A stretch of DNA of 64,000 nucleotides from Entrophospora sp. SA101. Lineage: Eukaryota; Glomeromycota; Glomeromycetes; Entrophosporales; Entrophosporaceae. The notes below the pieces were generated by a model. The model saw nothing but the letters and a program-made list of their open reading frames with translations, searched no databases and was not told the DNA's origin. This document shows, piece by piece, positions 8,949 through 64,000 of this stretch. The DNA lies in NCBI GenBank assembly GCA_958430865.1, contig CAUDNR010002190.1:25134-89133 (forward strand), in the 5' to 3' direction. Every line of letters begins with the position of its first letter. The first letter of the stretch is position 1. The position numbers and the translations under genes are program-made.

Positions 8949-8984
<36 letters not shown>

Positions 8985-10651: not shown

Positions 10652-10718
10652 GCTCAACTTGATAACAATAAATATTTTTTAAACGTTTTGCATTGCGTTT
10701 TTCTCCACAAATATTTTA

Positions 10719-11469: not shown

Positions 11470-11589
11470 GTGTTAGATACTGTGTAAAGTTTTACAATGT
11501 AGCTATACATGTGACAACGTGGAAAATTTTGCTTGAATAATCATTCTTCTACAAGTTGAAGAATTATGTAATATATATTATTAATCTTT

Positions 11590-16285: not shown

Positions 16286-17040
16286 TTAATCCAAGTAGAT
16301 ATCTTTACGAATTTTCTGGTGATTACATCCAAGTTTTCCCAGCCACACATGTACAATTGGTTCACTTATTTTTTTTTTCTTCAATTTCAATTGAAGGGAA
16401 TATTTCTTCTTCATGTATTTTTTAAAATCTTTAATACACTTTTTGACCAAAGGTATTCCACGAGTAATCCATGAAGGTTTTCACCATACATTAAACTTTT
16501 GATTTTTGGTGTTTCCATCTTCTTGAAATTGGAAGTATATCGCCCATCCTTTAGAAATTAATTAGACCATGTCCGAATCAAACAAGCACATCAAGGTTTT
16601 GCACCAATATGCTCTGCAATTATTTTGCTTGCATTATGTGCACCATAATCTTTAATGCGTAATCTAAAAGATTGGCGCATTGTTTGGAAGCGTATTTTAT
16701 CACCAGAATCATTATTTTTATCTTTCTCTAGAACTGATAATGTTGACAAAACGTCCTCAAACTTTTTAATTAAATCGATTTCACCACTTTCTATACATAT
16801 GGTCATCATTATCATTGCTATCAACCACAATATCATCTAGAGAATCTTTTTTTTGGAAAAAATGGTGTCAATTGCTAATCGTAATTACCAATATAACAGA
16901 AGATATTTTTGAATAGGACTTGCTGCCATCGTTTTTCAAAAAATTGAAGGTCAAAATCATTCTCATCATACCAAATTTCATCATTTGATTCATTGTCAGA
17001 TGATGATTTACCAATTATTATTTCGTCCAAGGAAATCATA
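16286..17040 (-). pseudogene. Degenerate DDE-transposase N-terminal fragment
   Basis: Read on the minus strand, the segment starts with about 54 acidic codons (SDNESNDEIWYDENDFD). An 81-codon frame follows, with RQSFRLRIKDYGAHNASK, then broken frames giving FLKDGRYTSNFKK and VHVWLGKLGCNHQKI. The order (acidic leader, HTH-like part, KDGR motif, WLxKLG motif) resembles the region before the catalytic domain of DDE-endonuclease transposases I recall from Rhizophagus. Several frame changes and stops, and no catalytic domain, make it a relic. The family call is from memory of motif style. Copies: 42141-42894 (+) and 50412-51166 (-). Confidence 0.5.
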
Positions 17041-17833
17041 TATATTTACATCAGGACCTAAAAGTTTATTATTATCAAAAACATTAAAATTTTGTCTCTT
17101 GCATTTTTTTTAAATGACTATTTTGACGTTTAGGAGGCAAAATGTGGTTAGGAACATAAAACATGTTTTTTGATATTTATATTAAATTTTTAAAGTCTTG
17201 CATCTATCTCACTATTGTGCCAAGAAAACATGGTCTGATTTTCTCACCGTTGTAATCCTTATAATATAGATATATATTATGCAAAAAACTCAATTTTGGT
17301 CAGAGAGGTCCCTAACCACATATTCCTGGAGCTTCCGTATGAGACTTATATATTTGATCTAGATAGTTGACCGACTACCTAATGGGCCTGTTTCTATTGT
17401 CCAATTGCCCATACATAGAACCTAAGCTACACAATGGCATGATTTTCACTGTCGTAACATCACAATTACACTTATAAACCTTTTTCTTAAACTGTCAAGG
17501 TCTTTCTTTCTTAGATTAATGGTATTGTTATTAAAAATTATCGTGTTACGCCACTCCTTAAGAGAAAATATATAATAATCGTTTAAATAAACAAAAAGGA
17601 TTTATTATAATTAATTAAAGGTAAAAACTGTATAAATTTAGCGGTGAAAAATATTATTAAAGCCTCTAATATTTTCCCATACAAGTCTTTGTGCGTAGAG
17701 TCATCACCATTTATCATCGACATAGTCATATCTTCTACCAAAAGTAATCTCATCTTCACCACCAACCCCTCCTATTATATTTCCATTTTCATTAATAACT
17801 ATTTGCATTACCGCCTGCTGGTATTCCATCTCT

Positions 17834-20800
17834 TCATTGAATATTATTGTTGTTGTCATTAATAGCATGATTTCTTAATTGTCTAAAATAAATTAACCAT
17901 GCAAGGAAGAAACAGCAAAATAATATAATAAATATGTCTAATGAAATAAGTAAATCGTCATCATCTTCTTCTTCTGTAGCAAAAGAAGAAAATGGCGATT
18001 CATCAAAATCATCATCATCACCGCCATATCTATGTGCTTTATATTTTTCTATTAATTTTTCGCCTTCTGGTCCAATAAGATCCCAATCTTTACGAGTATG
18101 TTTTATATCATTATTAGGATTAGAATTGTCGTTGGTAGAAGTCAATGAAGAAGAAGGAGAAGCAATTGGTAAATGAGGAGAAGAGAGGAAGATTGTTTCA
18201 ATTGAATTATTATTACCACCGTTATCTGTTTCATCATCCTTTTTTTCTTTATTATTTGATGTTTTTCCTATTTTTTGGCCATTGTCAACAATTTCGTTAT
18301 TGTTATCATTATCATTGTTTTTATTATTGGTATTGTCTTCCTTGTCTATTATTTTATTGTTATTAACATTATTATTATTACCACTAAAATATTCCCATAA
18401 TCTTTTAATATGTAAATTGATTAAAGATAATGTTGTTGGTAAATAACCATCGGGATTTGTTGCTAATGATCGATCATACCATTTTTTAGCAAGATGAAAA
18501 TCCTAAATTTATTATTTTGTTAATTATATTTTTATTTTTGCTTATTGTTTACTTTTAAGAAAGAAGCTCCTAGTACCTTAAAAACACCAATTCCATTTTC
18601 ATACATCCAACCAAGGTTCCACATGGCCATAGCACTAAATTGAACTTCAGCAGCTATTTGATAACAAGTGGCAGCTTTAACAAAATCAACTTCAGTTCCT
18701 AAACCTTTAAAATAATAGTCGCCCATTTTTACTCTTGCATCAATATTTCCTTGATTTGCAGATCTTGTCCAGTAAATTAAAGCTAATCGTTCTTGAACAG
18801 GATCATTGATTTTTGAATTTATTTGTGGCAGATACCACCACATTGACTTGTCTTTTATGTTGATTGAATTAAAATTAAAAAATTTTTTTAAAAAAAAAAA
18901 ACAACAAAAAAAAAATAAGCTAATGACAAAAAACAAACCCCTATCTAGTAGCCAAGCAACATTTGATTGTGCAATTTCATATCCTCTTTCAGATGCTAAT
19001 AAATAATGAATAAATGCACTTTCTTTATCACCAGATAAATATGCTTTATAAGCTTCAGGAAACGTTGAATACAACCAGTCACCATTTTCTACAACCTTTT
19101 TATACAACTAAAAAAAATAATAGTGAATATAAAAAATTTTTTTTAAACAAAAAAATTTATTCATGATAATTACAGTCACGGCCGTTGAACAAGATGGATT
19201 AGTACCGAAACCATTTGTAGACAATTCAGCTAAATAATAAACGGCAAGTAGATGATTTGATTGATCTGCCGCCTCTTGGAAGCAATCATATGCTAATTTG
19301 AATTCTCCTTTTTGAACTTGAAAAATTAAAAATAAAATAATTAATAAGTATTTATTTGAAAAAGTAATATTGAAATTAGTTAAATATACGTTGACAAGTA
19401 CAAAATATTAAGCCCAAATTAGCCGAAGCATCAGGATAATCTAATTTGGCTGCGAGTTTAAACAAATTCATTGCATTTTCATAACTCTAACATAATTAGA
19501 AATGAATTAATTAATATAATCGTTATTTTTTCTTTTTTAAAAATCAAACTATACCTTTTGAACTTCAACACCGTTCATATGCATCAAACCAAGTCCGTTT
19601 AGTGCAGTAGGATTAGAAAGTTTAACACCTCTAAGAAACCATTTCAAGGCGGTTCGATTATTTTGTTCAACGCCTTCACCTCTCAAATACATTTGACCTA
19701 ATATTCCAGCTGCTTGACCAGCTGCTTGGACAACTTCTAGATTAGTTGTAGGAGGAGATGATGTTGGTGAAGATAATGAATATGATAAGATTGGATCATT
19801 TAACATTGAAGCACCTGACGACGACGATGATGATGACTTCCAATATTGATTTGCAGCAAGTTTTAAATATTTTAATGCCAATTCAAAATTTTGAGAAATA
19901 CTTCTAGTTCCTTGATAAAATAATTGGCCTAAACCTATCTGTTGTATAAATATATATATATTGATCATTTACACTAATATATTTTTTTATAAATAGATTG
20001 ATTGAAATTACCTGAGCATTGATATCACCTTTATTGGCCATGTATTGATAATATTCTAAAATATCATCCCAAACAGGTTGATTAATTAATTTAGAAGGTG
20101 AACTAGCACTTGCGCCATATCCATAAATACCACCATTCTCGTCATATAATCTAATTTTTTTTGGAGGAAGTTGACGACCACCAATTGGTCCTGATTTATA
20201 ATATTCAATAGCTATAAAAATGGGTAGATAATGTCGATTATTGTGATTTTAATTTGTATAAATTATCTTCCTTTACTATATAATTAATTGAAAGTTTACC
20301 TTTGTCAGCAACACGTTTATAATAAAACAAAGAATCTTCACAACTTTTTGGTACGCCAATTCCCATTAAATAACGATATGCCAAAGTCATTTCAGCAGCA
20401 GTATCGTGACCAGATGCGGCAAATTTATGGTACAATAATGCCTGATCGATTAATTATAAAGGAGATATTGTGATTATAAATGTAAGCTATATATGTATCT
20501 GTTGATATCCTAAAAATCTTTTCAAACCAATAAATTTCGACACAAATATACACAATACCTTTACTTGATCTCTTTCAACCACATCATCAATTCCAGTTGC
20601 ATACATAAAACCAATCATTTGTTGGGCAGTTGAATTACCAGATCTATTTGCTAATTCTTGATAATAATTAAAAGCTGCTGTAAGATTACGAGGATATGTA
20701 TATTTTCCATACTAATAAAAAAATAAAGTTGTTAAATATTTTATCATGAATTACTCAAGTAAAAAAAAGTAAAGAAACACTTGCAAAGTTCATGTCTGCC

Positions 20801-21445
20801 AAAGTATACAAAGCATCATCATGGCCAAACTCAAAAGCAGCTTTTTCTAATAATAGTTCTATGACTTTTAATAATTCTTTTATTATATTATTGGTTGCTA
20901 GTTGCTTTCCCATATTTTGAAATTCTAAAGATGGTGATGATTGTGGTAGATTTATTTTAAATATAAAATAAATGGTTTTAGAAAAATACTTGTAGAAAAT
21001 ATTGAAAATATTAAGATCTGAATTGTCATCGCTAATGTTAGTAGTAGTATATGTTTTTTCTCTTGATGATAATAATCCCTTTATTGAATATAGTAGTGTC
21101 GATGCTGTTTGATATAATTCATCAGCTATCCAAATGTAAAAATGGAATAGATGGTGAGGGCTTAGAATTAATCATTTAATGTATCAATGAGTCAACCAAT
21201 TCATTATTTATTTATTTTAACATACCATTGATTTGATGATCATTATTGTAAGAATTATATTTAACATTATTTGATATTGATGATTGAATCGAAGGTGTAT
21301 TTGTGCTTTGAGACGCTTCACTAGTAGGGGTTGCCGCTTCAACTTGAACAAATATATAATAATTAATCACATAAAATGTAATGTAGAAAATAAGTAAAAA
21401 TTTTTTGCACATTTCTCTCTTATTATTATTATTACTGTTGCTCAT
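17834..21445 (-). CDS. HRD3: HRD3/SEL1L-like protein (copy C)
   Basis: Mirror copy of the gene at 11590-15201, with identical ORF segments throughout. Exons mirror to 21226-21445, 20779-21125, 20559-20711, 20300-20441, 20012-20211, 19555-19938, 19390-19486, 19174-19316, 18939-19107, 18577-18851 and 17834-18502, again giving 932 residues. The +1-frame coding-like tail is present at 17704-17835. B and C are tail-to-tail, with their 3' ends 2.6 kb apart. Either this is a second functional gene or the inversion is an assembly product. Confidence 0.88.
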
Positions 21446-21565
21446 AAAGATTAATAATATATATTACATAATTCTTCAACTTGTAGAAGAATGATTATTC
21501 AAGCAAAATTTTCCACGTTGTCACATGTATAGCTACATTGTAAAACTTTACACAGTATCTAACAC

Positions 21566-21853
21566 GTGATTTACCGAAATAACATAGTAAAAAATGTAGC
21601 TTTTTGGAATCAAGATCCATTGATTAAAACTTATATAAAAGTAAAAGGTATCATCATCAAATCTCATTTTTTAAATAATGGGAATAATGTTCCATGTCGC
21701 AATCCAAAAAAGGAAAAAAAAATGGTCGTAAAGACGGTTGCAACCAGTGGTTGCAATCATTTTTATATGACGCAACCATCATCAAAAGTTGCAGCCGGTA
21801 TCCTTAAATGGGAACCATCTATTCTGTCAAAATTTAATGCTCATAGCTTTTAA
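21566..21853 (+). CDS. Small hypothetical protein divergent to HRD3 (copy C)
   Basis: Exact counterpart of the 95-codon ORF at 11182-11469; unknown family, low confidence. Confidence 0.28.
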   Translation: MIYRNNIVKNVAFWNQDPLIKTYIKVKGIIIKSHFLNNGNNVPCRNPKKEKKMVVKTVATSGCNHFYMTQPSSKVAAGILKWEPSILSKFNAHSF

Positions 21854-22197
21854 AGTGGATCTACCAGGATGACAAAAATAAATTTTCTAGCATTGAGCAC
21901 ATGACTTCAATTATAATTGCCCAGCCAGGCTCTGCTTTAAATTGGGGAAAAATTTTTTTAAGGGTAGAATTCATCGACGTCATACTTTATTATAGAATAT
22001 ATGGGCTACTTTTTACACAAACTTGAGTTCGTTTATTGAACAATATTTACAAAATAGTTTATTATTTCCTGCATAATAATCTTCTTTATAACAGACTAAA
22101 ATTCCGAAAATTTTAAAAAATTTCAAATGATTCTATGTTTTAACAATATTTGTGCTTCTAATAAAAAATCTTTTTTTTAAGTTCTGAAACATATGCA

Positions 22198-22316
22198 TAC
22201 AGTTAAACCTCGCTTCAACGAATCTATTTAAAATCACGTTTCAACGAGTTTTATATGATTTTAAAAATTCGCGATGCGAGTTTAATTATAATTCGTCGAA
22301 ACGATGCTTAACTGTA
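22198..22316. mobile_element. 119-bp pogo/Tc1-like MITE (copy C)
   Basis: Inverted copy of the element at 10719-10837, with the same TA-flanked CAGTTAA ends. Confidence 0.72.
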
Positions 22317-24050
22317 TAAAATATTTGTGGAGAAAAACGCAATGCAAAACGTTTAAAAAATATTTATTGTTATCAAGTTGAGCTATAGTTTCTATTCGCA
22401 ATGCAAATTCTTATTCGAATTATTCGTTTATTCGTTTTATTCAAATACAATAAATAATTCAAATAAACTTGTTCAAATAGAAACTATAAGTTGATTCAGG
22501 CCCGAGTTAAACTTGAATTTTTCAAGTTCGGGTTGAAATCAAGAGAATATGCTCTTAAATTATTTTTTAGGTAATGGGTTGCAAAAATAAAAACATTATG
22601 AAATAGTATATAGCATCAAATCGAGCTGGCTCGGCTCGTCCAGAGCTTTGATTAAACACATAAAATGTCATCTTGGAACAAAAACTTTCAATTGTGAATA
22701 TCCGGGATGTACAAAGTAGTAACACACAAGACATCATTTTGGAATGCTTAAAAGATTTTTACTAAATTTGAACTCAATATAGGATTCATTAAAATTTGGT
22801 TGCATAATAATGATAATGAATTGTTAAGTAATTTTTGTGTATGGATATTTAATTAATCAAATGCTTGTTATATTATTGATAAATTAATACTGTTGACAAT
22901 GTTAGAGAAACCAATGTTCCTGCATTAGAAGAACTTATTTAACCTATCTAATGCTATGCCAGTTGATAAATTTTTAAATAATCCAGAAGAAGGGATGGTT
23001 AATGGGGTTCTGATAATGATAAAATTACTGAGGGTCTTGTGAAAGCATTTAAAAAACAATTGGAAGTGCCTACTGAAGGATCAATTCTGATACCTGTAAA
23101 ACAATTCGGTCTTATGCGGATCGGTTAGCTTTTTTAAAAAGTCATCGAAAGAGAGATTTAGAATAATAATATTATTATTAATATGATATTAATATCTAAA
23201 TGACCCGTTCAAACGCTAAACTATCGGTTTTGACAATTGATACTTAACCTTTTGCACTTTGCCTTTGAAACGCTCAAAAACAGTCAAGTAAGCACGACTT
23301 GCGTACTATGTAAAAAATTTCTCATAAAAATTTACAATAGTTGACATTCAAAATAAATTTGTTGCTCGAACGCAATTCGTCACGAAATCCCCAAAAGTTG
23401 TCGAGTGGACAAGCCTCACGTGAAAGTACAAATTGGAAATTGTCGAATTTTTAAAAGGCGTTTCCCTTCGTTAACTTGGGCTATAAAAAACATTTTGAGC
23501 TTTGTTTCGCCTAAATAATACTTTTGATGATTCTTTTGCTTTTCGTTTGCACATTTTATTAAACTAAATTTATGGATTATTGTTTTTAATAATATTTATA
23601 TTGTATTCGTTCAATCCTCTGAAATTGATGTAATTGTTTTTGTGAGCGGGAAATCATATCGTCAATTGTTATCATTATTAATTCCGTCACATCTGACAAA
23701 GTTGACGAAATGGTAAATGTGACGAAAAGGTGAAAATTATGACAATATAATTAATTAGAAATAATAAATTTAGTATGTGCTCTTAAATTTATATCGTGAC
23801 TTGTTCATTAAGATTCCTTATTGAAATGCCAGATTTGTAAATGCTGGCTCAAATATAGGGTTTCTATTAGAATAAGGTTTATTTAAATTATTCGTTTTAT
23901 TCGTTAAGAATCTTATTCGAATAAAATGAATAAACTAATACTAATACTAATAATTCGAATAAAACCGATAATTCGAATAAAATTAATAAAATTTGATAAT
24001 TCGAATAAAATCAATTAAAAATTCGAATAAAATTAAGGATTAATATTAAT

Positions 24051-24086
<36 letters not shown>

Positions 24087-25279
24087 TCGAATATCATATA
24101 GTGATAATAATAATAAACAATAGCAACTGACTTTTTATTTTATTTTCTTAAGCCATAGTAATAATATTGATTATAAACACAAAATAGTTTTACAAATGGG
24201 TTAAAACCCTTAACAATAAAAATAAAAATCATATAGAATTTGTTGCATCAAGCTGTGAATTAATATTTTACATTTTATAAACGAATAATTCGAGTAGACA
24301 GATAAAACGATAATTCTAATAAGAATTTGTATTACACTACTCAAATGTCAATGATAATTTGTCCTCCACTGGGAAGATCGGTATCCACATTTTACCAAAA
24401 AGCCTGTTAATATTAAAATTTTCAAAGCTCATTTTCTGCTAAATGTTCGTAAATTTTCAATATGGAGAAACGTCAGCATTTGCAAATTACTTTATTGTAT
24501 TTGAAATACATCTCACTTTCTTTAGAGCAGAAAATGATTATTGTAGTGAAGCTAATGAAATTGAAAGTTATTTATTAGGGTCCCCAACATGATGTTTTCC
24601 CAACAACTCATTTCATTGACTAACTGACCACTTTATACAAATTAAATCGAGGCTAGTTTTATTAATTGCACTTTAGAAAACACACTGTCGGAAAACGGTT
24701 GACTAAATGTCAGTCAATCATTTCGGTGACGGATATCTGCATCACTAATTATGACACTGTATATATAACAATGTATATTCTGATAAACAACACCCATTCT
24801 TTAATGGTTGTTTCTATCAATGCTAAGGATACGTAAAATTTTTATTTGATCTCAAATATGAAATAATTTTATGTCTTCATCATAAAGAATTTAATTTTGC
24901 TTACAAGATAGGTTTTTCCCAGCTCAGCAAACCATCAACTTCTACCAATAACATCTACCACAGTCCCGCTTAGGTTTTTTAACAATAGATAAATATAATA
25001 TATATTGAACAGATTCAAGACAAAATTTATAATCAAGTAAATCTTTTTCTTTGTTTTCAATATTTCTTTGATTTTTTTGCAACGGGTAAATGTGTGTATA
25101 ATAAACAGCAATTAAATCTTTATTTAATTTATTCAACTTGCACTTTTTTATACTAAAGGTTTGATTTATATATTTAATTGAATCATTAATTACATTGAAT
25201 AGTTAATTATATTGAATAATTAAATATCAAAATCAAACCTGTTTTCACTTTTATTTGATTCTTCAAAATTTTTCAGCTT

Positions 25280-25426
25280 AGTAGGTAACAGTATAACGTA
25301 AGTAGGTAACAGTATATATATACTGTTACCTACTTACGTTATACTGTTACCTACTTACGTTAGACTGTTACCTACTTATGATTAGACTGTTACCTACTTA
25401 TAGGTATATTGCTACCTACTTATTTT
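25280..25426. repeat. 76-bp palindrome array (copy C)
   Basis: Same sequence and orientation as 2560-2706. Confidence 0.9.
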
Positions 25427-25698
25427 ATAGCTACTCATTTTGACCTCTAATAAGCTTGTTATTTGCTTCCTTTTAATGATTTGATGATATGTAGATCGCA
25501 TTTATATTGCCATTTAAGAGCTACTGAGACACGTGCCAGTGTAGCATGCGTTTTGCTTTTGCCTCGTCATTCGTATGCTGGTTTGATGATTGTGGCCGAT
25601 TTCTACTATTAGGCTACATGGGTAAAAAATATATCTGACGATGCATTCAGTCATATATCATCATTTGTGGGCCCGATGTGAGGGCTATGCCCGAACCC

Positions 25699-26064
25699 GG
25701 CACGTAGTGCCTTAGCTTTCTGATTAATTCCTCGATTAGGGCCAGAGTTGAGGCACATAGTGCCGAAATAGTATTCGTGACCTGGCTTTGTATGATGTGT
25801 TCGAATATCAATCGAGGATGAGGCACGTAGTGCCGAATTGTTATCCTATTTGGAAACGCGAGGATGAGGCACGTAGTGCCGAATCGTTATCCTATTTGGT
25901 GACCCGAGGATGAGGCACGTAGTGCCGAATCATTATCCTATTTGGTAACCCGAGGATGAGGCACGTAGTGCCGAATCGTTATCCTATTTGGTAACCCAAG
26001 GATGAGGCACGTAGTGCCGAATTGTTATCCTATTTGGTAACCCGAGGATGAGGCACATAGTGCC
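25699..26064. repeat. GGCAC-GTA-GTGCC hairpin array (copy C)
   Basis: Eight copies of GGCACGTAGTGCC (two with GGCACATAGTGCC). The last six are spaced regularly, about 44-46 bp apart, inside the unit GAGGATGAGGCAC...GTGCCGAAT, then CGTTATCCTATTTGGTAACC. Each core is a hairpin with 5-bp arms and a 3-nt loop. A related GGGC-TAT-GCCC hairpin precedes the array (25682-25692). Confidence 0.93.
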
Positions 26065-26827
26065 GAATTGTTATCATATCCGTTGATACCCCAAAGCATA
26101 ATTTTATATATTATATATCTTTCTGTAATAATTATACCTTGGGGTATCACTTTTTTTCGATACCTATTTGTATGTAACCCCAAAGCATAATTTTATATAT
26201 CTTTCTATAATAATTATACCTTGGGATATCATTATATCGAAAACTTTGGGATAATACTATAGAAAACTTTGGAATAACACTATATCGAAAACTTTGGGAT
26301 AACACTATAGAAAACTTTGGAATAACACTATATCGAAAACTTTGGGATAACACTATAGAAAACTTTGGAATAACACTATATCGAAAACTTTGGGATATCA
26401 TTATCAAACATGTATCAAAAAACGTGAACACTATTTATAATCAGAAAATGAAACCTGGGGTACCACTAATTCGAAAACTTTGGAGTATCACTTTTTTCGA
26501 TACCTTGAAGTATCATTTTTATTGATATCTAAATTAGGCAACACAAAAATGGTTATCGAGGAAGCTGAGCTTCGATTCTCTGACTCATACATACCTTATA
26601 TATCGGAGGTACTTACCTGAAATTTATCTTAATCAAAATCGCGCGACACAAAAATCCCTTTATATGATCCAGGTATCGGAATATTAATTTTTGATTTGAA
26701 TTTTTTCTCATACTTATTGTAAGAAATGCTTACCCGAGATGAATGACTAGTTAAATGTAGCAATCTCTCTTCTCCAGAAATTACTACTTAACTAGTTTAT
26801 ATCACCTTGAAAGATATATAACAACAA
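26065..26827. repeat. Tandem CTTTGGGATA repeats and cassette flank
   Basis: No gene is seen. Positions 26228-26405 are tandem units built on CGAAAACTTTGGGATAACAC and AGAAAACTTTGGAATAACAC, about 46 bp per pair. Two copies of CCCCAAAGCATAATTTTATA precede them. The flank 26640-26827 is shared with the other orphan tails. An ORF over the tandem units (26147-26431, minus) is repeat-derived. Confidence 0.8.
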
Positions 26828-26966
26828 TTACGCATATTCGATAAAGGCTAAAGAGTAGGTTTTTAATTCTTTTTTGTGCGGAGTAGTAGGAATACCTAAT
26901 TTAGTTTCAAAATTTCGCTTGTGTTCCAAGAACTCAGCTTCATTCATGCTTTCGCGCTCTTTTTTC
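26828..26966 (-). pseudogene. Orphan 3' end of the large cassette ORF
   Basis: Minus-strand tail matching the last 45 or so codons of the ORF ending at 34033 and facing it across the cassette, so the cassette body (26967-33893) lies between inverted copies of this gene's 3' end. The match stops at the run of pyrimidines after AAAAAAGAGCGCGAAAG (read inverted). Confidence 0.8.
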
Positions 26967-27016
26967 TTTTTTTCTCTCGAGTTCGAAAAAAAAGTGATAC
27001 TCCAAGGTATATTTAA

Positions 27017-27211
27017 CTAATTCTCATTAATTATTTTTTTCAAATAATATAAATAAAAGGCATATTCTATAGCACTATTTATATCTAAAGAAATCGATTC
27101 TTCATCACTTTGAAGAAATTTTATAAGCTTTGTTTTTACGTCATTTTCAATTTTTTGCCAATTTGGATTGATATTATCTTGAGAACTCATTTTGTATAAT
27201 AACTGTTTCAT
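27017..27211 (-). CDS. Small cassette protein of about 57-64 residues
   Basis: A 64-codon frame downstream of the coiled-coil gene and on the same strand; a second Met at codon 8 (MSSQDNINPNWQKI) is an alternative start. It is acidic and predicted helical (DVKTKLIKFLQSDEES). The nearly identical copy at 61057-61203 stops early at codon 49 because a GAA is TAA there. No family is recognised. It may be a separate small gene or a relic. Confidence 0.4.
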   Translation of the reverse strand: MKQLLYKMSSQDNINPNWQKIENDVKTKLIKFLQSDEESISLDINSAIEYAFYLYYLKKIINEN

Positions 27212-27259
27212 ATAATTTTTAAGAATTAATAAATTTATTTAACTTCTATTTTTTCTTCA

Positions 27260-28291
27260 TTATCCGACGATCCACATATCCCGCAACTGCTCACTTTTCC
27301 TTCCTAACCCCGATGTACGTCTCAATACCACAAACCACATAACTGCGATAATTAATAGAATAAGACAAATATATGCTGATAGCAGTGACATCAAAGAGGA
27401 GGTATGATTTTCCGGCTGTGCAAGGTACGGGGCCACGTTCCTTATCTCCTGGGTTGGGAATATATCTTTATTAGTTTTGCTAATATCGATTTCATCACTT
27501 ACCTTGGGAATAATCTCAGTATTTACTCTTGGAGATTTGGATATAGGAGTACTTTCATTATCAGTGTAATCCGGTATAATAGTATCAATTTTTCCAGCTT
27601 GATCCATATTTTTTTTACGTATAAAATATTGACTGAGATTTTTGATAGGTTCATTAGACACGTAAGTGTCATTGCTTTGCAATACTGCAGATATATCGTC
27701 AGACTTGGTCATGGAACTTTGTTCCTCGCACAGCGTATTTTTTTCGTCGTTTCCACCAAGTACGGGCTTTGATATACCCTCCGATTTCAGACAGTCAAGT
27801 TCACTGACTTTTGAAGCTAACTCATGTTCTACTTCAGCTATTTTAGACTTGAGGGATAATATCTCGGATTCTTTTTTCAATGAGTCGTTTTGAATCGAAA
27901 TCACATCTTTCTGGGCTGAAGACAACTTACTTTTCAATATATCGATCACAGACTCGAGCGATTCGATTTTCTTGGATTTTGTAGCATTCTCAGCCTTGGA
28001 TTCAGCAAGAGAAAGATCTTTACGAATATTCTCAGAGGTAAGGTTAGTATTTTCAATTTTCAACCGCTTAGTCTCACCAATAAGTTCTGAAGCGTGGGTA
28101 TGTAACTTCTGTTTATCACTATTAACATTATCAAATGCACTTTCCCATTGCTTTCTTTCCCGGTCCCACTGTTTTCTTTCCCGATCCCACTTCTTATTTT
28201 GTTTTAATTGAGTATCTCGCAATGTTTTATTGCAAGCATTTAATTCGGATATAATTTTTACACCATAACGCAATTCTTCATTGATATCCAT
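27260..28291 (-). CDS. Coiled-coil protein with C-terminal membrane anchor (cassette 1)
   Basis: 343 residues from ATG. Residues about 20-190 are a long heptad-rich, charged coiled coil with a tandem WDRERKQ at the start. A Ser/Asp-rich middle follows, then one strongly hydrophobic segment (about 299-323, AYICLILLIIAVMWFVVL) and a 20-residue tail ending LRDMWIVG. That layout fits a tail-anchored membrane protein facing the cytosol. The paralogue at 61251-62438 has the same order and shares QYF-[IL]-R-x-KNMDQAGKIDT, EIIP, DEIDISKTN and an unchanged membrane segment. It is divergently transcribed from the HTH gene at 28565, with tandem repeats between them. Function unknown. Confidence 0.75.
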   Translation of the reverse strand: MDINEELRYGVKIISELNACNKTLRDTQLKQNKKWDRERKQWDRERKQWESAFDNVNSDKQKLHTHASELIGETKRLKIENTNLTSENIRKDLSLAESKAENATKSKKIESLESVIDILKSKLSSAQKDVISIQNDSLKKESEILSLKSKIAEVEHELASKVSELDCLKSEGISKPVLGGNDEKNTLCEEQSSMTKSDDISAVLQSNDTYVSNEPIKNLSQYFIRKKNMDQAGKIDTIIPDYTDNESTPISKSPRVNTEIIPKVSDEIDISKTNKDIFPTQEIRNVAPYLAQPENHTSSLMSLLSAYICLILLIIAVMWFVVLRRTSGLGRKSEQLRDMWIVG

Positions 28292-28348
28292 AATATTAAT
28301 AAAACTTGCTTCGTTAAAAAATTAAAAATTTTGAAAGCAATAGGAATA

Positions 28349-28500
28349 TTTGATATATTTGATATATTTGATATATTTGATATGTTTTATTTTTTTTCGA
28401 ATATTAGGGAACTCTTTTTTTATTCTACATATTTTTTCCGATATATTACATTTTTTCGATATATTACATTTTTCCGATATATTACATTTTTCCATTATTT
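28349..28500. promoter_or_regulatory. Tandem iterons in the divergent promoter (cassette 1)
   Basis: Four copies of the 9-mer TTTGATATA (28349-28384), then three copies of a unit containing TCGATATATTACATTTTT or TCCGATATATTACATTTT (about 28436-28495). They lie between the divergent coiled-coil and HTH genes. A role as binding sites is inferred from position only. Confidence 0.45.
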
Positions 28501-28564
28501 TTTATATTTTAATATATTGTATTTTCCAAATAAAAATAGCTACTGTGTAGTTACTTCCAGCATT

Positions 28565-29152
28565 ATGGTTAGACCACGTATAAAATTTGGCACACCTTTA
28601 TTTTCTTCAGCAGATTATGATTATATTATGCAATGCCGTGATTTGGAACCAAGAAATGAAATTTTAAAGGATTTATTAAAAAAATATAGAACATCATCAA
28701 AACGGATTTATCAAATCTGGAGAGAAGAAGCTAATAGGGTTGCTTGGGATCAACCTATACCTCAAACATATAATCACGATACTAAGTGTCTTGAGTCGGA
28801 GACTCGTGGCTTTGCCACTGACACTAGCTCCGCTAATATATCAAATTCTGCTACAGATGTTCTTCATATAGAATCCCTGTCTTTAGATAGAGATAAAGTC
28901 CCATTGCTATGTAGGACCGAAGAGTCAACCCTAAAGGGTTATAATATATCAGAAGAACCAAGTAAACGAACAAAAACAAAGAGATCCAAATCTGTTCGAA
29001 AATCCAACTTGCCTATTATCACCAAAGACTTAATAGAAAAAATAGATGAAAAGCCTGCATATTCTACAGATACATTAGCCTCTTTTAGACGTGCAGTAGA
29101 AGAAGGCAAGGAAAATTTATCAAATTCGAAATATAAAATTGATGAGTTATAA
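28565..29152 (+). CDS. Small HTH-like DNA-binding protein (cassette 1)
   Basis: 195 residues from the ATG at 28565 (MVRPRIKFGTP); an upstream in-frame extension to 28331 is low-complexity 5' leader. Residues about 15-55 form helices with the pattern RNEILKDLLKKY ... SKRIYQIW, like a homeodomain/recombinase-type HTH. The paralogue at 62711-63205 has IRKSKNKVPKYVL ... NRVEDIW at the same place. A Lys/Arg-rich block (KRTKTKRSK) follows in the C-terminal half. The middle contains two abutting mini-hairpins in frame (28793-28818) and a third at 28927-28940. It may regulate the cassette or bind its repeats; that is inference. Confidence 0.6.
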   Translation: MVRPRIKFGTPLFSSADYDYIMQCRDLEPRNEILKDLLKKYRTSSKRIYQIWREEANRVAWDQPIPQTYNHDTKCLESETRGFATDTSSANISNSATDVLHIESLSLDRDKVPLLCRTEESTLKGYNISEEPSKRTKTKRSKSVRKSNLPIITKDLIEKIDEKPAYSTDTLASFRRAVEEGKENLSNSKYKIDEL

Positions 29153-29302
29153 TCTCCGAATTTTGTCTATTCTATTGCAAAGCAGGGCGACCCTACTCTC
29201 TATTTTCTTTACCAGGTAATCCAATGTAGTGATAAACAAGAGTATTAAGATTAGTGATAATTTTTGTTGCATCATACATTTCTTTCTCATACCTCTCGCA
29301 AT

Positions 29303-30277
29303 TTACGCATTTTTTTTTAACACCTTTGGTACTTGCTCTGCTAATGATGAATCGTCAGAATCTGGGATAAAACGCGCAGGAGCATGCCATTCCTCCAATG
29401 TTATATTGTCATCCTTATCACTATCCGTCTCTTGAGAAATTTGATCGGATACCAAAGACTTATCATTCTGAGATGCGGTAGCGCAATTTACTTCAAGATT
29501 ATTTTTGACATTGTGCATAGTTACAGGAATAATATGATCCTTACCATTAAAAGGAATTTTTAACTCATCTTTGGCCCAATCTATAGCACATTTGTATTTC
29601 TTGAGAAGTGGATTCGAAAATATTAATGTTGGCTTTTTATATTTCACAACTACAAAATCTTCATATATAGTAAAACCTGGAGGGAATGTTATTGGTAAAT
29701 TACGGATGACACCAATGGATTCAGTTGGAACTGTAGCAATACCACTGAGATCATATATCTCTGATTTATCAATCTTCCCACCCACACGTTTAACAATGTC
29801 GTCTGTTACAATCGCGGGTTGGGCGGCCGAATCTAATGTCATTGCTGGAATTTTCAGACGCTTAATCTTACATGGTATAGTTGCGATAGTTGTAGTAGGT
29901 TCTTTCTTTATAACGAAGTCTATCTCCATAGGATCATCTAATGTTTCTTCTTCCTCTGAATCGGGTATTGCTGGAACCGGTTCTCGATAATCTGTAAAAT
30001 TCGATTTTTTGATAGATGGGAGTATATCAGATGGGTTCTCAATCTTAGCTTTAAGTTTCTCAATCCAATCTATAGGTGCGATACCATCAAGCATATCTAG
30101 TATAACTCTTTGAAGTGATTTATCAATAACAGTTGATTTATTTCCAGACTTATTGCTTTGCAATGACTCTTTGAGTCTACCAGAAGCAGGAGTATTTTTT
30201 TGTTTTGTCTTGCGAGGTTTGGATTCCTTTTTGACTTTGGACTCCTTAGATTCGGGCTTTACTTGTTTTTTTTTGAT
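29303..30277 (-). CDS. pro: Retropepsin-like aspartic protease (Pro, cassette 1)
   Basis: The frame is open from 30277, overlaps the end of gag and lies in the -1 frame relative to it; no ATG is near, so it is probably made as a Gag-Pro fusion. An independent TTG start would be at 30163. Downstream of that start, residue 111 begins the active-site-like MTLDSAAQPAIV (DSA in place of DTG/DSG). The end of the fold follows as LIFSNPLL, then KKYKCAIDW and LKIPF, as in retropepsin-like domains of Gag-Pol proteins. An acidic tail of about 70 residues follows. The protein would process Gag. Ala replacing the catalytic-loop Gly is unusual, so activity is uncertain. No RT or RNase H follows; the next gene (28565-29152) is on the other strand. 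Confidence 0.72.
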   Translation of the reverse strand: MKKKQVKPESKESKVKKESKPRKTKQKNTPASGRLKESLQSNKSGNKSTVIDKSLQRVILDMLDGIAPIDWIEKLKAKIENPSDILPSIKKSNFTDYREPVPAIPDSEEEETLDDPMEIDFVIKKEPTTTIATIPCKIKRLKIPAMTLDSAAQPAIVTDDIVKRVGGKIDKSEIYDLSGIATVPTESIGVIRNLPITFPPGFTIYEDFVVVKYKKPTLIFSNPLLKKYKCAIDWAKDELKIPFNGKDHIIPVTMHNVKNNLEVNCATASQNDKSLVSDQISQETDSDKDDNITLEEWHAPARFIPDSDDSSLAEQVPKVLKKNA

Positions 30278-30279
30278 TT
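30256..30279 (-). promoter_or_regulatory. Probable -1 ribosomal frameshift site, gag to pro
   Basis: Read on the minus strand, the last gag codons are TCA AAA AAA AAC AAG TAA. This holds the heptamer A AAA AAC in the gag frame, one codon before the stop. The protease frame is exactly the -1 frame here and is open from just upstream (30277). A slippery heptamer before a gag stop with the next ORF in -1 is the classical retroelement arrangement. A downstream stimulatory structure was not worked out. Confidence 0.65.
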
Positions 30280-32208
30280 AGAGACGTGTACATCAAAACT
30301 ATGATCAGATTCAACTTCAGACGAGGAATCCCCAGAATCGGAGTTATTATCTGAAGAATCATTATTGGAAGAGTTTGTATCTGAACCCGAATCTACAGCA
30401 ACCTTATTAACACTGCCTCTCTTTTTGGATCTACTCTTGGACCTTTTCTTACGAGTACACTTGCGAGAATTATGTCCAGTTCTATTACAATTCGAACAAC
30501 GGTGTTTGGATGATTTAATAACAGCGTTGACACCTGCTTCAATACCTTTGGCTATAGCCTTATTTATTGATAATTCTGACATACCCTTAGTAATTTCATC
30601 CATATCATCATTATTAGGAGTATTATTTTTCTTATTTGGTAAGAAAGGCGTGATTCTATCCATTACTCCTTTACTAATTGTATCCATGAAAGTTTGTAGA
30701 TAAGATGGACCTGCTAAAGCACTAAGACGATCTGTTGCATCGTCTATTCGAAGCCATTCTTGATCATTCAAGCGTAAAAGTGGATCTCGATATATTTTAC
30801 CTGGTTCCATTTGACTGGGTCGTAATAATTGTCCTTCTCGTCTTTGGGAAGTTGATTGCGTAGAAACAGGTTGAGATTGCGATGAAGCTATAATAGATTT
30901 TACAAAGCTTTCCGTTTCATCTCTACTCATACCCATATTGCTTGAATAATTATCTTTTGTATTAGCTTTAGATTGTGAATGAGAAATAACAGGGTGGGAT
31001 TCAGGATTATACTTACCCAACATCATTTCAGCCTTCTGTCTTTCAATTTCTTCTAATTTTGGTAGTAAAACAGAAATTGGGTGTTCGAGACCGATACGTC
31101 TTACTTCTAATTTGTTATCAGGAGAAAGACCCTGAAAGAATTGTTGTCTAACCATTGCTTCCTGATTTAATGCTGGGAGTGTTGGGTAAGCCAGTTTAAC
31201 CATTCTTTTTAAGTTTGCATAGAAACGGCCTACAGGATCAGAGCCTTGAGCAAGGGTAGTGAATACCAATTTCGTTTTTTCAGCTGTAACTGTGGGATAT
31301 GCACGCCTAAAATAATCAATTACTTGGCCAATAAAAATATTTGGAGCTATAACATTACCTCCTACATTGGCATTGGGAGCATTTGGAGCCAAGTCTGTTG
31401 GTCGTCCACCTGATGTCAGCCAGTCTTCATGCCATACAGTGTGGGACGGAACTAGTGGTATAGCAGGTTGATTTCCATTAGCTGGTGCAGTATTTCGAAT
31501 TTGAAGAGCCCCACCTCTGAACTGATTAACATTAATAGCACGTATTTGATTGTTAGTCAATCCATTAAGAGCATGAAGATTTACATGGGCACCACAATTA
31601 TCACTAATATTTTCTAATTCCCAGTTTTTGCCTTTGACATTGGTTTCATACCAGTCTTTTGAGTCATCCAATAAGCAAGTTTCAAAAATACCATGAATTC
31701 TCATTCGCATATTATGTCCAGCATTTGGATCATAATTAGCAGTCTCACACCATCGTTGAAAATCAGTAAGAAAAACTTCTGGATCTTCTCCAGCCCGACC
31801 ATGAAATTTTGGTAGTTCATATCCAGCCATTCCTCTATATTGGTTATTTATAGGTTGATTATTCTGAAGCGCAAAAATTTGTTGATTTAAATTCAAAATT
31901 AATTGCTGTGAATTGCGTTCCCTATTTTTCCACTTGATATGACTTGCCTTTCGATCCTTGAATTTATTGTAGTATTTATCAAAGATTCGATCTCGATTAT
32001 ATTCTAATAATCCTTTATCAGCCTGACATTGCTGTAGCCCCTGTTGTAATTCTCTACCATGTCTTTGACACCTCCGGAATTTAAAATTAAGTGCAAACTT
32101 ATCAAGTAATAAAGTATTAATCCGCATCTGCATTCCTTTTTCCAATTGTTTAGCTACCCTCCACCAATGACGACGTTCTTCCCGTTCATTATAATAAGCT
32201 GTAGTCAT
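30259..32208 (-). CDS. gag: Retrotransposon Gag with CCHC zinc knuckle
   Basis: 649 residues from the ATG at 32208. A basic, helical N-terminus (about 1-120) leads into a capsid-like region: YELPKFHGRAGEDPEVFL and DFQRWCE near 130-150, then after an insert PVGRFYANLKRMVKLAYP and FFQGLSPDNKLEVRRIG, typical of Ty3-type retrotransposon gag domains. A CX2CX4HX4C knuckle (CSNCNRTGHNSRKC) lies near residue 571 and is followed by an Arg/Lys/Ser block and an acidic Ser/Asp/Asn tail. It would form particles and bind RNA. The frame is intact over 1.95 kb, unlike most other mobile genes here. The ATG is only 40 bp from the N gap, so upstream regulatory DNA or an LTR cannot be judged. Confidence 0.87.
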   Translation of the reverse strand: MTTAYYNEREERRHWWRVAKQLEKGMQMRINTLLLDKFALNFKFRRCQRHGRELQQGLQQCQADKGLLEYNRDRIFDKYYNKFKDRKASHIKWKNRERNSQQLILNLNQQIFALQNNQPINNQYRGMAGYELPKFHGRAGEDPEVFLTDFQRWCETANYDPNAGHNMRMRIHGIFETCLLDDSKDWYETNVKGKNWELENISDNCGAHVNLHALNGLTNNQIRAINVNQFRGGALQIRNTAPANGNQPAIPLVPSHTVWHEDWLTSGGRPTDLAPNAPNANVGGNVIAPNIFIGQVIDYFRRAYPTVTAEKTKLVFTTLAQGSDPVGRFYANLKRMVKLAYPTLPALNQEAMVRQQFFQGLSPDNKLEVRRIGLEHPISVLLPKLEEIERQKAEMMLGKYNPESHPVISHSQSKANTKDNYSSNMGMSRDETESFVKSIIASSQSQPVSTQSTSQRREGQLLRPSQMEPGKIYRDPLLRLNDQEWLRIDDATDRLSALAGPSYLQTFMDTISKGVMDRITPFLPNKKNNTPNNDDMDEITKGMSELSINKAIAKGIEAGVNAVIKSSKHRCSNCNRTGHNSRKCTRKKRSKSRSKKRGSVNKVAVDSGSDTNSSNNDSSDNNSDSGDSSSEVESDHSFDVHVSKSKKNK

Positions 32209-32248
32209 CAAAGCAAGATCATTCTGAGAATTGTTACGCTCTAGTGTA

Positions 32249-32258
32249 NNNNNNNNNN
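32249..32258. other. Assembly gap (10 N)
   Basis: Ten Ns between gag (-) and the large ORF (+). The DNA between their 5' parts is missing, so the true distance and any terminal repeat are unknown. Confidence 1.
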
Positions 32259-34033
32259 CCCGAATTCGTGATTGTGAAAAGCGTATACTTTCTCTCTTTT
32301 ATCAAAAAAATTCCAATGAACTCTCTCGCACACCAGGTCATGAAAATATTCGTGCAGAACTTGCAATAGCTCGACCCAATGATTTGCCTACAGCAATTAA
32401 AGGACATCGTGAATGGGATAAAGATAGCATTTCCTATAAACTTGATCAATCCCCTGCTGTAACATCATTTGTTGAGGTTGAGCATCAAAAACGTCTCTCA
32501 GCAAGAAATTTTATCGAGATTTCATGTAGCCTTATTGCTAGTACTGGGGCAAGTCTCAAACTAATAAAAATGGATGAGAGCCGAGGAGTTATAGGGATTC
32601 GTAAAAAAGTTCGTAATGAAATTAGGGCTGAAGTATCGGTTATCAAGCATACAGATTTTGATGCAGTCGCCACTTCTCGAAATCTTACTCCTGAGGAAGC
32701 TGAATTTCTTAAACTTGATTCAGAACGCTCAGTTGCAGATACTATGGCACTTAAACGTTTTTATATGTGGAACCTTTATGATGGAAATGGTATGAGCATC
32801 GAGGATTGGAATAAACTCTGCGATAAAGATTTTGTAGAACGTTTTAGTCCACCCGAACCTAGAAAACATTTCTTGCATCTATCTCATTTTTACAAGCAAG
32901 GTTATGATGAAGAGAGTGCAATAGAAGAATTAAAGGCCAAAGATATCACACAATGGGAAGATACATGTTATAATGCTAAAGATAATTTCGAGGATTCCGT
33001 AGCAAAAGATTTACGCAAAACATATTCAGCAAATCATTGGGAAGCTGTATGCGGGCTTTTACAGTCGCTTGGTTTTACAGGTATAGATGATAAACGCATT
33101 CTCTGTGACGATCAGGTAAAAGTTGCATTTGAGGCATCTCGTGAAAAATTTATAGAAATTCGAAGTCAATCTTTATTGCTCTTTGGCTTCAAGTCTCGTG
33201 CAAAGGAAATACCAGATCTTAAATCGGCTATAAAAGCAATTAATGCAATTGTTGGCAATTGGTGCGGTTATACTATAAATAGTGAACGAAAATTGATAGG
33301 TCCTAAAGAAAAAAGAGTTTGGAAATATTCATATCAAATTAACCGAAAGCCATATAAACGACGTGGTTTCGATAATCAAGAAGAAGTAATGGCTAGAAAG
33401 TTAGATAATCCTGAATATCGCTCTAAAGTCCCAGTTCTTCCATCATATAAGTCAAAGGTGAGTGATGAGATTCAGGACTTTTTCGATTCTATACCTATTA
33501 CTAACAATACTACTTTAGAATATGCTGAGCGTGAAATTTCTGACTCATCTAGTAATGCGATTGATGAAAAAGCTTTATCTTTACCGGAGGCAGACACACA
33601 GTGGCTAAAAATGCCAGCTCAAGATCAATCAATCGATTCAAATAAAATAAGTGAACATAGAGAGGATCATATTCAAGATGTATGCTATGTCAATACTATT
33701 GATGAAGCCGGTACAGCTGAGAAAAAAATATCTGAATCTCTAATTTCTTTATCTTCAGAATTCCTTATTAAAAGCGAATCTGATATAGATATCCTTATTC
33801 TTCTTTTACAGCAAAAATATCAAATGTCTCAAGAAAAATTAGATCAATGGAGAAAAAAGATTGCCTTTGAAATGCGGGATAATCAAAATTACTGGAAAAA
33901 AGAGCGCGAAAGCATGAATGAAGCTGAGTTCTTGGAATATAAGCGAAATTTTGAAACTAAATTGGGTATTCCTACTACTCCGCACAAAAGAGAATTGAAA
34001 AATAAATCTTTAGCCTTTATCGAATATGCGTAA
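32259..34033 (+). CDS. Large cassette protein, 5'-truncated; possible replication/origin-binding C-terminus
   Basis: About 590 codons are open from the gap edge to 34033; the start lies in the gap. Residues after the gap include LTPEEAEFLKLDSERSVADT, then KRFYMWNLY and a helical segment, HWEAVCGLLQSLGFTGIDD, and FGFKSRAKEIPDLKSAIKAI followed by a WCGYTI motif. The helical pattern (EAE..K...R......ALKRF) resembles the part after the helicase in viral and plasmid-type replication or origin-binding proteins. This is a weak, memory-based similarity; no helicase motif is visible because the N-terminus is missing. The last 150 residues are an acidic linker and a Gln/Lys-rich helix ending FIEYA. Orphan copies of this 3' end lie at 3855, 26828 and 60820. 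Confidence 0.4.
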
Positions 34034-34655
34034 CTGTTGTTCAAGATAATACAATCTAGTTAAGTAGTAATTTCTGGAGACAAGAGATTGCTACATTCAG
34101 CTAGTTATATATCTGGGTAAAGGGATTTTTGTCGCCTCTTACAAATAAGTATAAGAAAAAATTCAAATAAAAAATTAATATTCCTAGATCAATAATAAGG
34201 AGTTTTTGTGTCGTGTAATTATGCTTTGGGTATCTACCAGATATATATTATAAAATTATGCTTTGGACGTCTATCAGATATATATAAAATAAAATTATAC
34301 TTTGGACGTCTACCAGTATAAAGATATCAACTACACGAGAAATGGTTTAAAAATCGAGAAACATGGCTGGTATTTGGTAGCATATCAAGGTATAATTATG
34401 TGTCATAGACACTAACTTCGTTATTACAGGTATATATATATTATAAAATTATGCTTTGGGTATAAAAATTGGTAGTATCCCAAAGTATTTTTAACATGAA
34501 GTGATAGTAATCGAAAGTATCAACTATGCAAGAAAGATTTCCAGGATCGCAAAACATAGTATACTGATGGTAGACGCCCAAAGTAAAATTATTACAGAAA
34601 GATATATATTATAAAAATTATGCTTTGGATGTCTACCAATAACTGCTAACAATTC
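34034..34655. other. AT-rich cassette flank, no gene
   Basis: 34045-34215 is the inverted counterpart of 26640-26827. 34220-34640 has repeated phrases around ATTATGCTTTGG and GACGTCTACCAG, loosely related to the CTTTGGGATA repeats at 26228. No coding region is seen. Confidence 0.7.
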
Positions 34656-58069: not shown

Positions 58070-58105
<36 letters not shown>

Positions 58106-63993: not shown

Positions 63994-64000
63994 TCGTCTC

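Follow-up and report, generated by a model that had tools for sequence, protein, structure and literature searches.

The large virus realms are told apart by capsid type, and a jelly-roll capsid is the defining feature of the assemblage that comprises Polintons, adenoviruses and giant viruses. Polintons (Mavericks) combine a B-family DNA polymerase (PolB), an rve integrase and an A32-type packaging ATPase with jelly-roll capsids, a cysteine protease and inverted terminal repeats (TIRs). The Polintons of Glomus intraradices (R. irregularis) have no detectable major capsid protein (MCP), according to the available part of PMC7805220. In five strains of R. irregularis neither an A32 ATPase nor an MCP is reported in the available part of PMC10640383, which also reads stand-alone asfarvirus-like PolB genes of this fungus as traces of giant-virus infection. 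The element described here shares with Polintons the PolB, the rve integrase and the A32-type ATPase, inverted terminal repeats in the subtype found in the window, and, at three loci with protease and integrase nearby, a match to the protein-primed PolB model PF03175. It differs in having a retroviral-type Gag and an aspartic protease instead of the expected jelly-roll capsids and cysteine protease; an asfarvirus-like polymerase is also at odds with how Polintons are defined. It comes from the same fungal group as the Glomus intraradices Polintons; Gag and retropepsin go unmentioned in the available part of PMC7805220.

The window (the whole stretch of 64,000 nucleotides of Entrophospora sp. 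SA101 DNA that was analysed) holds at 26.6-32.2 kb a cassette in the order TIR, small ORF, coiled-coil membrane protein (CC), HTH-like protein, retropepsin and Gag, the start of which recurs at 60.7 kb. The ORFs present agree with the order and strands that the original prediction gave for both loci (26828-34033 and 60820-64000). The left TIR of the first copy (26634-26966) has an inverted blastn match (26631-26966 to 34226-33895, 82%) and contains a helicase ORF tail of 45 residues (26831-26965, minus strand; tblastn). This tail had been described as the orphan 3' tail of a large ORF; it is present, but as the inner part of the inverted repeat. Next are the small ORF of 57 aa (27020-27193, minus strand; 98-100% identical in L024, L026 and 61012-61182), CC with one C-terminal hydrophobic segment (27260-28291, minus strand), the HTH-like protein, so labelled in the first reading, with 195 aa from Met (28565-29152, plus strand), and a retropepsin-like aspartic protease with the active site DSAA (29303-30163, minus strand; Asp_protease E 0.059). 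The C-terminal 663 residues of Gag (30259-32247, minus strand) include a CCHC knuckle CSNCNRTGHNSRKC and the capsid (CA) region that was modelled (31015-31845, minus strand); the N-terminus is lost in an assembly gap of 10 N (32249-32258), one of three such gaps in the window. Across this gap lie the C-terminal ~590 residues of a Herpes_ori_bp-type helicase (32259-34033, plus strand; 99.8% identical to L013) and the right TIR (33895-34223; inverted match running to 34226, homology to C543 ending at 34223). In other copies the integrase is found at this place, past the N-terminus of Gag. The second copy consists of a left TIR (60676-60958; blastn repeat copy), the small ORF (61012-61185, minus strand; 98-100% identity to the first), CC (61251-62462, minus strand), a different allele of the HTH-like protein (62711-63205, plus strand) and a retropepsin (63404-63999, minus strand; Asp_protease_2 E 4.7e-4), the frame of which has an interruption close to the 3' end and is truncated where the contig stops. 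A remnant of the TIR and helicase tail is located at 3629-3972 (blastn and tblastn).

The two window loci are not independent, because 23304-27856 matches 57323-61928 at 89% identity. The first locus is flanked by 5.3-kb inverted arms that are 100% identical (20725-26027 and 39949-34647). The 10-N gap may join different copies, and the flanks at 26.6 and 34.2 kb are inverted copies of one 5.3-kb arm. Since the Gag and helicase frames both run open into the gap at 32249-32258, neither their adjacency nor a lack of integrase can be read in the window.

By its sequence, the window copy belongs to a subtype whose TIRs (~330 bp) carry the tail of an origin-binding-type helicase. Fourteen TIR ends of this type were aligned, three of them only in part, and among the loci scanned the small ORF was found solely beside this type of TIR. 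Longer helicase homologues match PF02399 (E 2.3e-18 to 5.1e-20). Within 6 kb of 36 helicase loci the integrase and PolB were found at none, the ATPase at two and Gag at one, and these neighbour counts do not support a helicase in every copy of the element; helicase and integrase were in no case read in one element free of gaps. The sole Gag near a helicase locus is that of the window itself, across the gap. In L028, though, an N-terminal PolB-like piece stands next to the helicase. No complete element with both TIRs and a target-site duplication was resolved among the copies examined. The PolB copy of C2085 showed no convincing TIR, its best inverted match being 99 bp at 72%; the left arm of this match lies inside a frame that seems to resemble a hAT transposase.

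Dozens of further loci carry the cassette proteins in fixed order, which are therefore not a product of chance; the proposed recurrent mobile-element module was thus recovered well beyond the two duplicated loci. Chance ORFs are ruled out by this recurrence together with dN/dS below 1. In the other copies gag abuts a divergent integrase, the Pox_A32-type ATPase is located beyond the integrase, and PolB is on the opposite side. The absence of integrase from Gag-Pro, as originally predicted, does not extend to these copies: an rve integrase was found within 3 kb of Gag at 32 of 42 merged Gag loci, with a chance expectation of about 0.17 by a simple uniform calculation. Of the 30 Gag-integrase pairs within 1.5 kb, 29 were divergent, and ATPase and integrase were on one strand in all 29 pairs within 3 kb. 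A neighbouring Gag, integrase or polymerase was found at 35 of the 48 protease loci of at least 450 bp, protease being divergent from integrase (26/27) and convergent with polymerase (13/13). CC is downstream of the protease at 33 of these 48 loci, on the same strand at 31 of the 33. The HTH/membrane-protein pair, which had been thought to stand in the place of reverse transcriptase (RT) and integrase, is positioned between protease and polymerase instead. Looser counts placed integrase with Gag at 30 of 45 loci, ATPase near integrase at 29 of 58 merged ATPase loci, PolB with Gag (within 10 kb) at 9 of 29, and PolB with protease (within 6 kb) at 14 of 29. Of all 82 merged protease matches, including short ones, 28 had an integrase within 5 kb and 32 a Gag within 3 kb. 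The incomplete neighbour counts may be due to decay, to other elements, or to contig ends and N stretches. In L040, the cleanest copy, every frame from ATPase to PolB is open, PolB being cut by the locus end.

Protease identity divides 26 loci into three groups (A, B and C). The integrase identity of group B (58-100) has no overlap with that of groups A and C (35-50), and groups A and C are not separated by it. Judged from these identities, protease and integrase diverge in parallel. CC and the HTH-like protein are additions of groups A and B to the core genes. Finite dN/dS estimates, from a set without the ATPase and helicase, were all below 1; the high values, 0.68-0.83 for HTH and up to 0.69 among Gag pairs, weigh against the Polinton/Maverick-like reading favoured below. 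An internal stop was absent from 34 of the 35 gene copies used.

The presence of a Gag and a retropepsin-like protease in the cassette, as predicted, is borne out by Asp_protease matches, the CCHC knuckle and the predicted CA fold. Longer Gag frames (880-989 aa) occur in L023, L015 and L021, and of the 20 sequences in the Gag alignment 11 matched Retrotrans_gag, with E 3.1e-4 at best. Two divergent Gag types were modelled for the CA fold: for the first (pLDDT 66) the best 50 PDB rows listed were all retroviral CA, and for the second (pLDDT 90) the best 50 were retroviral, retrotransposon, Arc or PEG10 CA. These rows are VIA-align results on the candidates of Foldseek, so that folds missed by Foldseek cannot appear. 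According to the models, Gag has a retroviral-type CA fold. A BFVD fold search returned many Gag rows, none with E ≤ 0.001, and single-sequence and profile searches of Gag against PDB gave mostly coiled-coil proteins. Gag relatives were named from Rhizophagus, Diversispora, Glomus and Cetraspora. The Gag ORF of L021 has 100% identity over 92% with a protein recorded for Entrophospora sp. SA101, which makes this fungus, rather than Rhizophagus, the most likely source of the genome. The protease active site is DSGA in L021 and DPGA in L040, where Asp_protease_2 (E 6.9e-5) is just under the Pfam cut-off. Protease scores are below the Pfam cut-offs throughout; P0142 likewise stays under them for Gag, knuckle and protease, and protease searches of PDB sequences gave weak DDI1 rows alone (best E 0.053).

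Among the traits of LTR retrotransposons and retroviruses, the element thus shows retropepsin and a predicted Gag capsid fold; like Ty3, Ty1 and Copia Gag-Pro it has the CA fold, CCHC knuckle and retropepsin, but no RT was found nearby, and it possesses a DNA polymerase and a packaging-type ATPase. The predicted lack of RT held, as none of the listed RVT_1 matches (at least 71) comes closer than 6 kb to any of the 48 protease loci. Full-length relatives with RT and integrase had been named as a sign of deletion derivatives; relatives with an integrase were found, and RT was not. Simple deletion derivatives of LTR retrotransposons were rejected on the lack of a listed RT near the protease loci and the fixed association with DNA-replication genes. 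Gag, CCHC and retropepsin, being retrotransposon hallmarks, would also suit LTR retrotransposon Gag-Pro debris nested in unrelated DNA elements. This explanation is highly improbable, given that no listed RT match accompanies any of the 48 protease loci, that the orientation of Gag-Pro is fixed relative to integrase and polymerase, that protease and integrase diverge in parallel, and that the integrase does not follow gag but is oriented divergently from it.

The integrase of L023 matches rve PF00665 above the cut-off (E 5.2e-8) with DD35E intact (D96, D161, E196), and that of L040 has lost the catalytic Glu and scores under the cut-off; integrase searches of PDB sequences gave no match at E 0.1. 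The PolB model match (E 3e-42) is above the cut-off. PF03175, the protein-primed type, is near protease and integrase at three of six loci (C235, C1437, C1591), and most polymerase loci match PF00136/PF03104 instead; PolB of L015, L021 and L040 matches PF00136 and not PF03175. The closest PDB entry to the L015 PolB is 8ywg, a 1206-aa 'DNA polymerase' (E 5.6e-217; 726 bits against 72 bits for the next unrelated family), which we take to be the African swine fever virus polymerase. Some copies most likely carry a PolB of the protein-primed type and most an asfarvirus-like PolB, to go by these matches. Homologues in R. irregularis reach 73% identity over the part searched. The element shares its asfarvirus-like polymerase (L015) with the stand-alone PolB genes of R. 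irregularis and differs in that its polymerase sits beside integrase, ATPase and Gag; an A32-bearing element is a poor fit to R. irregularis, because no A32 is reported there in the available part of PMC10640383. The Pox_A32 packaging ATPase (E 5.8e-14, above the cut-off) has 75 matches genome-wide. In viral metagenomes the ATPase and the single PolB sequence found no relative, and a PolB profile found two contigs (24-30% identity) with no other element genes in the stretch examined. CC has 85 matches genome-wide and weak coiled-coil matches alone in PHROGs; all 7 copies examined have a hydrophobic segment close to the C-terminus. The first HTH-like protein had no Pfam match at E 0.1; its DNA is identical to the L021 copy.

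The cassette probably forms one side of self-synthesising DNA elements that carry Gag-Pro and make up a Polinton/Maverick-like family. The core, as assigned from sequence matches, is PolB, retropepsin, Gag and rve integrase, with an A32-type packaging ATPase in many copies. Gag and retropepsin most likely occupy the slots expected for a jelly-roll capsid and cysteine protease. PF04451 (NCLDV jelly-roll MCP) gave no match in a search with this single capsid model, in which no control gave a hit either; PF02902, a single model for the Adenovirus/Ulp1-type cysteine protease, gave 26 matches, none on the contigs of the 48 protease loci. A jelly-roll capsid too divergent to detect, with Gag-Pro as an accessory, is quite unlikely: every ORF of at least 400 aa listed between PolB and ATPase in L015/L016 and L040 has an assignment, although in L016 two ORFs without one, of 185 and 307 aa, follow the ATPase, the element possibly extending further, and the capsids of certain other protist Polintons at first escaped recognition, as far as the available part of PMC7805220 describes. 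Gag-Pro could instead be a passenger whose function is non-structural, inside a DNA transposon that abandoned virions; it might, for instance, restrict retrotransposons or other elements, or act as an RNP carrier. Arc and PEG10 are Gag-derived proteins with other roles. Both appear among the best structural rows listed, together with the likewise Gag-derived restriction factor p22 of Ty1, which, like the empty PF04451 search in which no control matched, favours such a passenger. It is nevertheless unlikely, since Gag is coupled to protease and packaging-type ATPase over deep divergence, and assembly and maturation are therefore suggested.

In the preferred Polinton/Maverick-like reading, the B-family polymerase would copy the element as DNA and the integrase would insert it. 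Gag, matured by the retropepsin, would form a shell replacing the double-jelly-roll capsid, into which the A32-type ATPase would drive the DNA; the coiled-coil protein would anchor particles at a membrane, and regulation would fall to the HTH-like protein. It is conceivable, at somewhat less than an even chance, that the element represents an integrated dsDNA virus lineage of arbuscular mycorrhizal fungi in which a Gag shell of retroviral type and a retropepsin took over from the jelly-roll capsid and cysteine protease of Polintons, an A32-type motor packs polymerase-copied DNA and, in most copies, an asfarvirus-like polymerase has also replaced the original one. No description of Gag in a Polinton was found by title and abstract start among the papers listed in open-licence PMC, and the mix of a Gag-type shell protein with DNA polymerase, integrase and packaging motor was not found in the literature searched. 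If the virus-lineage reading is true, the element is a DNA-to-DNA virus whose capsid is of the retrovirus type, and the union of Polinton-type integration and packaging genes with a Gag-type capsid would amount to a capsid exchange between realms. Gag is a candidate for the missing capsid of the Glomus Polintons, and some lone asfarvirus-like polymerase genes in R. irregularis may be parts of such elements rather than marks of repeated giant-virus infection.

The original prediction had placed a Gag-retropepsin cassette at two loci of the window, and its gene order is right at both, as judged from the re-read ORFs and from comparison with other copies. Its reading is altered by a sequence gap, an inverted repeat and a duplicated flank. 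The window sequence is scaffolded, with 10-N gaps at 7441, 32249 and 45780, and the one at 32249 falls at the very junction of Gag with the large opposing ORF (32259..34033, + strand), with both frames open into it. Compared with other copies, some 190-250 residues are missing from the N-terminal end of the window Gag (663 remain, where L015, another locus of the same genome, has 851 counted from its alignable start; the gap falls at position 248 of the frame of locus L023), and some 790 from that of the opposing ORF. The supposed orphan tail of the large ORF is part of a ~330-bp inverted repeat at both ends of the first copy (26631-26966 versus 34226-33895, 82%), found whole or in part at twelve further places (14 stretches aligned). 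The flanks of the two loci are duplicated as well (89% over 4.7 kb), and the loci are therefore not independent witnesses. One Gag ORF of the genome is 100% identical to a protein from Entrophospora sp. SA101. The cassette is surrounded, at 7463-25573 and 34647-57324, by direct and inverted segments as long as 8 kb, 99.8-100% identical and with N gaps; these are palindromic duplications of very recent date or else artefacts of assembly. Downstream of a remnant of the terminal inverted repeat (TIR; 3629-3972), two ORFs at 5546-6974 presumably resemble a MULE/FAR1-type transposase.

Elsewhere in the genome the cassette stands within a gene set that is most likely Polinton/Maverick-like, whose order was pieced together from partial loci, some with long N stretches. 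L015/L016 (contig C2085) carries a B-family DNA polymerase (PolB, +), the coiled-coil protein with C-terminal hydrophobic segment (CC, -), the HTH-like protein (HTH, +), the retropepsin-like protease (Pro, -), Gag (-), an rve integrase (INT, +) and an A32-type packaging ATPase (+). In L021 the stretch between INT and PolB is ordered alike. L023 holds the end of PolB, CC, Pro, Gag, INT and a broken ATPase; where HTH stands elsewhere it has a + strand ORF with no match, and an ORF of leucine-rich repeats separates INT from the ATPase. L040 (C1399) reads ATPase, a domain related to the integrase C-terminus (opposite strand), INT, Gag, Pro, HTH, CC and PolB; all frames are open, and PolB is cut by the locus end. 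Assignments were made by PF00136 (E 3e-42) and PF03104 (E 5.8e-14) for PolB, PF00665 (E 5.2e-8) for INT, Pox_A32 (E 5.8e-14) for the ATPase and Asp_protease_2 for Pro (E 6.9e-5, slightly below the cut-off). The domain fused to the INT C-terminus in L023 (5941-7620) is a separate opposite-strand gene in L040 (1156-1821) and, by coordinates, in other copies of the same group (group A, see below); our impression is that it is possibly nuclease-like (weak DUF2726 match, E 0.016).

Neighbours were counted from tabulated match coordinates, with some rows omitted. INT lies within 3 kb of 32 of 42 merged Gag loci, where a simple uniform calculation gives ~0.17, and Gag-INT pairs within 1.5 kb are divergent in 29 of 30 cases. 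ATPase-INT pairs within 3 kb share a strand in 29/29. Counted in reverse over the same distance, Gag occurs at 30/45 INT loci and INT at 29/58 ATPase loci; Gag was found within 10 kb of 9/29 PolB loci. Pro loci of at least 450 bp number 48, and 35 of them have Gag, INT or a polymerase as a neighbour; Pro-INT pairs are divergent (26/27) and Pro-polymerase pairs convergent (13/13), and CC lies downstream at 33/48 loci, on the same strand in 31 of these. No reverse transcriptase occurs within 6 kb of any of the 48, among the 71 matches listed. When all merged Pro matches are taken, short pieces included (n=82), INT is found within 5 kb of 28 and Gag within 3 kb of 32. Loci without the expected neighbours may be explained by contig ends, N stretches, decay or unrelated elements.

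Herpes_ori_bp (PF02399) is matched at E 2.3e-18 to 5.1e-20 by longer homologues of the opposing ORF, whose frames span 1046, 1212 and 1230 aa, and the 1230-aa homologue matches the PDB entry 'Replication origin-binding protein' (E 1.6e-7). Within 6 kb of the 36 helicase loci retained from 42 matches, neither INT nor PolB was found, ATPase occurs at two and Gag at one, the window itself; the helicase is thus confined to one subtype at most. This subtype is marked by a helicase tail inside the TIR adjoining the CC gene, a mark also present in C48, C755, C1361, C1363 and at C1348:1810-2681. Contig C48 is the one link between the subtype and an integrase, by coordinates: INT at 24570-25421 (-), Pro at 27610-28401 (+), then CC and TIR, which is the order of the polymerase-bearing copies. 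At L018, L013/L014, L028 and L027, helicase genes of this type stand alongside a 376-417-aa ORF, possibly as a separate TIR element family; L018 and L027 have an additional coiled-coil ORF (432-536 aa), which in L018 terminates in a tail related to that of the helicase. A 57-aa ORF adjoining the helicase-type TIR is 98-100% identical between copies (window 27020-27190 and 61012-61182; L024:3605-3775; L026:2319-2489), whereas the CC gene beside it has a dS of 0.78 between the two window copies.

Two polymerase types were seen. The best PDB relative of the L015 polymerase is a 1206-aa DNA polymerase, 8ywg (E 5.6e-217), which we take to be that of African swine fever virus; the C1399 polymerase (L034) is 55% identical to that of L015. 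The protein-primed-type model PF03175 matches six loci, one below the cut-off. Three of them (C235, C1437 and C1591), a group known by coordinates, are flanked by Pro and INT arranged as in other copies; Pro lies within a 1072-aa open frame in C235 and C1437, which also give a DNA match to the Gag region, and C1591 has a Gag match. These three are the nearest to canonical Polintons, and they are good places to seek the ancestral form. Grouping 26 loci by Pro identity to L040, with INT identity measured against L023, gives group A (Pro 72-100%, INT 35-50%), group B (41-46% and 58-100%) and group C (29-32% and 38-41%); INT identity sets B apart from A and C, which it does not separate. Where a polymerase was seen in group A or B it is PF00136-type, and three of the five C loci have the PF03175 type; CC was found near none of these five. 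Set against polymerase type, this grouping suggests, from identities rather than trees, that Pro and INT seem to have travelled together and that the polymerase has been replaced one or more times.

Pairwise dN/dS values, rough since several dS exceed 1 and calculated over pairs with a finite estimate, are as follows: PolB 0.13-0.24, INT 0.16-0.34 (from two finite pairs), Gag 0.28-0.69, Pro 0.09-0.56, CC 0.26-0.61 and HTH 0.68-0.83. These values fit selection on active copies. Internal stops are absent from 34 of the 35 gene copies used. All five long polymerase copies examined contain the motifs DFASLYPS and YGDTDS, and three stops interrupt one of the five; L023 retains the whole integrase triad D96, D161, E196, and L040 has lost the Glu. 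The HTH-like gene occurs as very different alleles shifting between copies (window 28565-29152 and 62711-63205; L021:4516-5103; L015:5368-5862). Between the first window copy and L021 the HTH DNA is identical, with dS of 0.61 for Pro and 0.29 for CC; the second copy and L015 are near-identical in HTH, with a CC dS of 0.15. A pattern of this kind suggests that copies recombine here, and the gene exchanged may be one for immunity or regulation.

The following steps are proposed from the gene anatomy. The polymerase would copy the element as DNA and the integrase would insert it; Gag would assemble a shell and be cut by the retropepsin, and the ATPase would fill the shell. Tethering or coating of particles is a possible role of the membrane-anchored coiled-coil protein, and control of expression a possible role of the HTH-like protein.

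Polintons are described as carrying pPolB and RVE integrase, often with MCP, minor capsid protein and packaging ATPase (PMC7805220), the most conserved further ORFs being an adenovirus-like cysteine protease and the packaging ATPase (PMC6431247). In Glomus intraradices Polintons MCP is given as undetectable, including in that paper's own analysis (PMC7805220). Among the open-licence PMC papers that literature searches listed, no title or opening of an abstract tells of a Polinton with Gag; the association of Gag with the element was seen in the Entrophospora genome. The study of five R. irregularis strains reports neither A32 ATPase nor MCP (PMC10640383); the lack of A32 in that species argues against simply carrying the Entrophospora picture over to it. 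Asfarvirus-type DNA polymerases are reported from R. irregularis (PMC5294986; PMC10640383); the five-strain study counts 15-33 copies per genome in regions other than the single large viral one, and suggests infections (PMC10640383). The present data suggest that these polymerases may have an origin other than infection.
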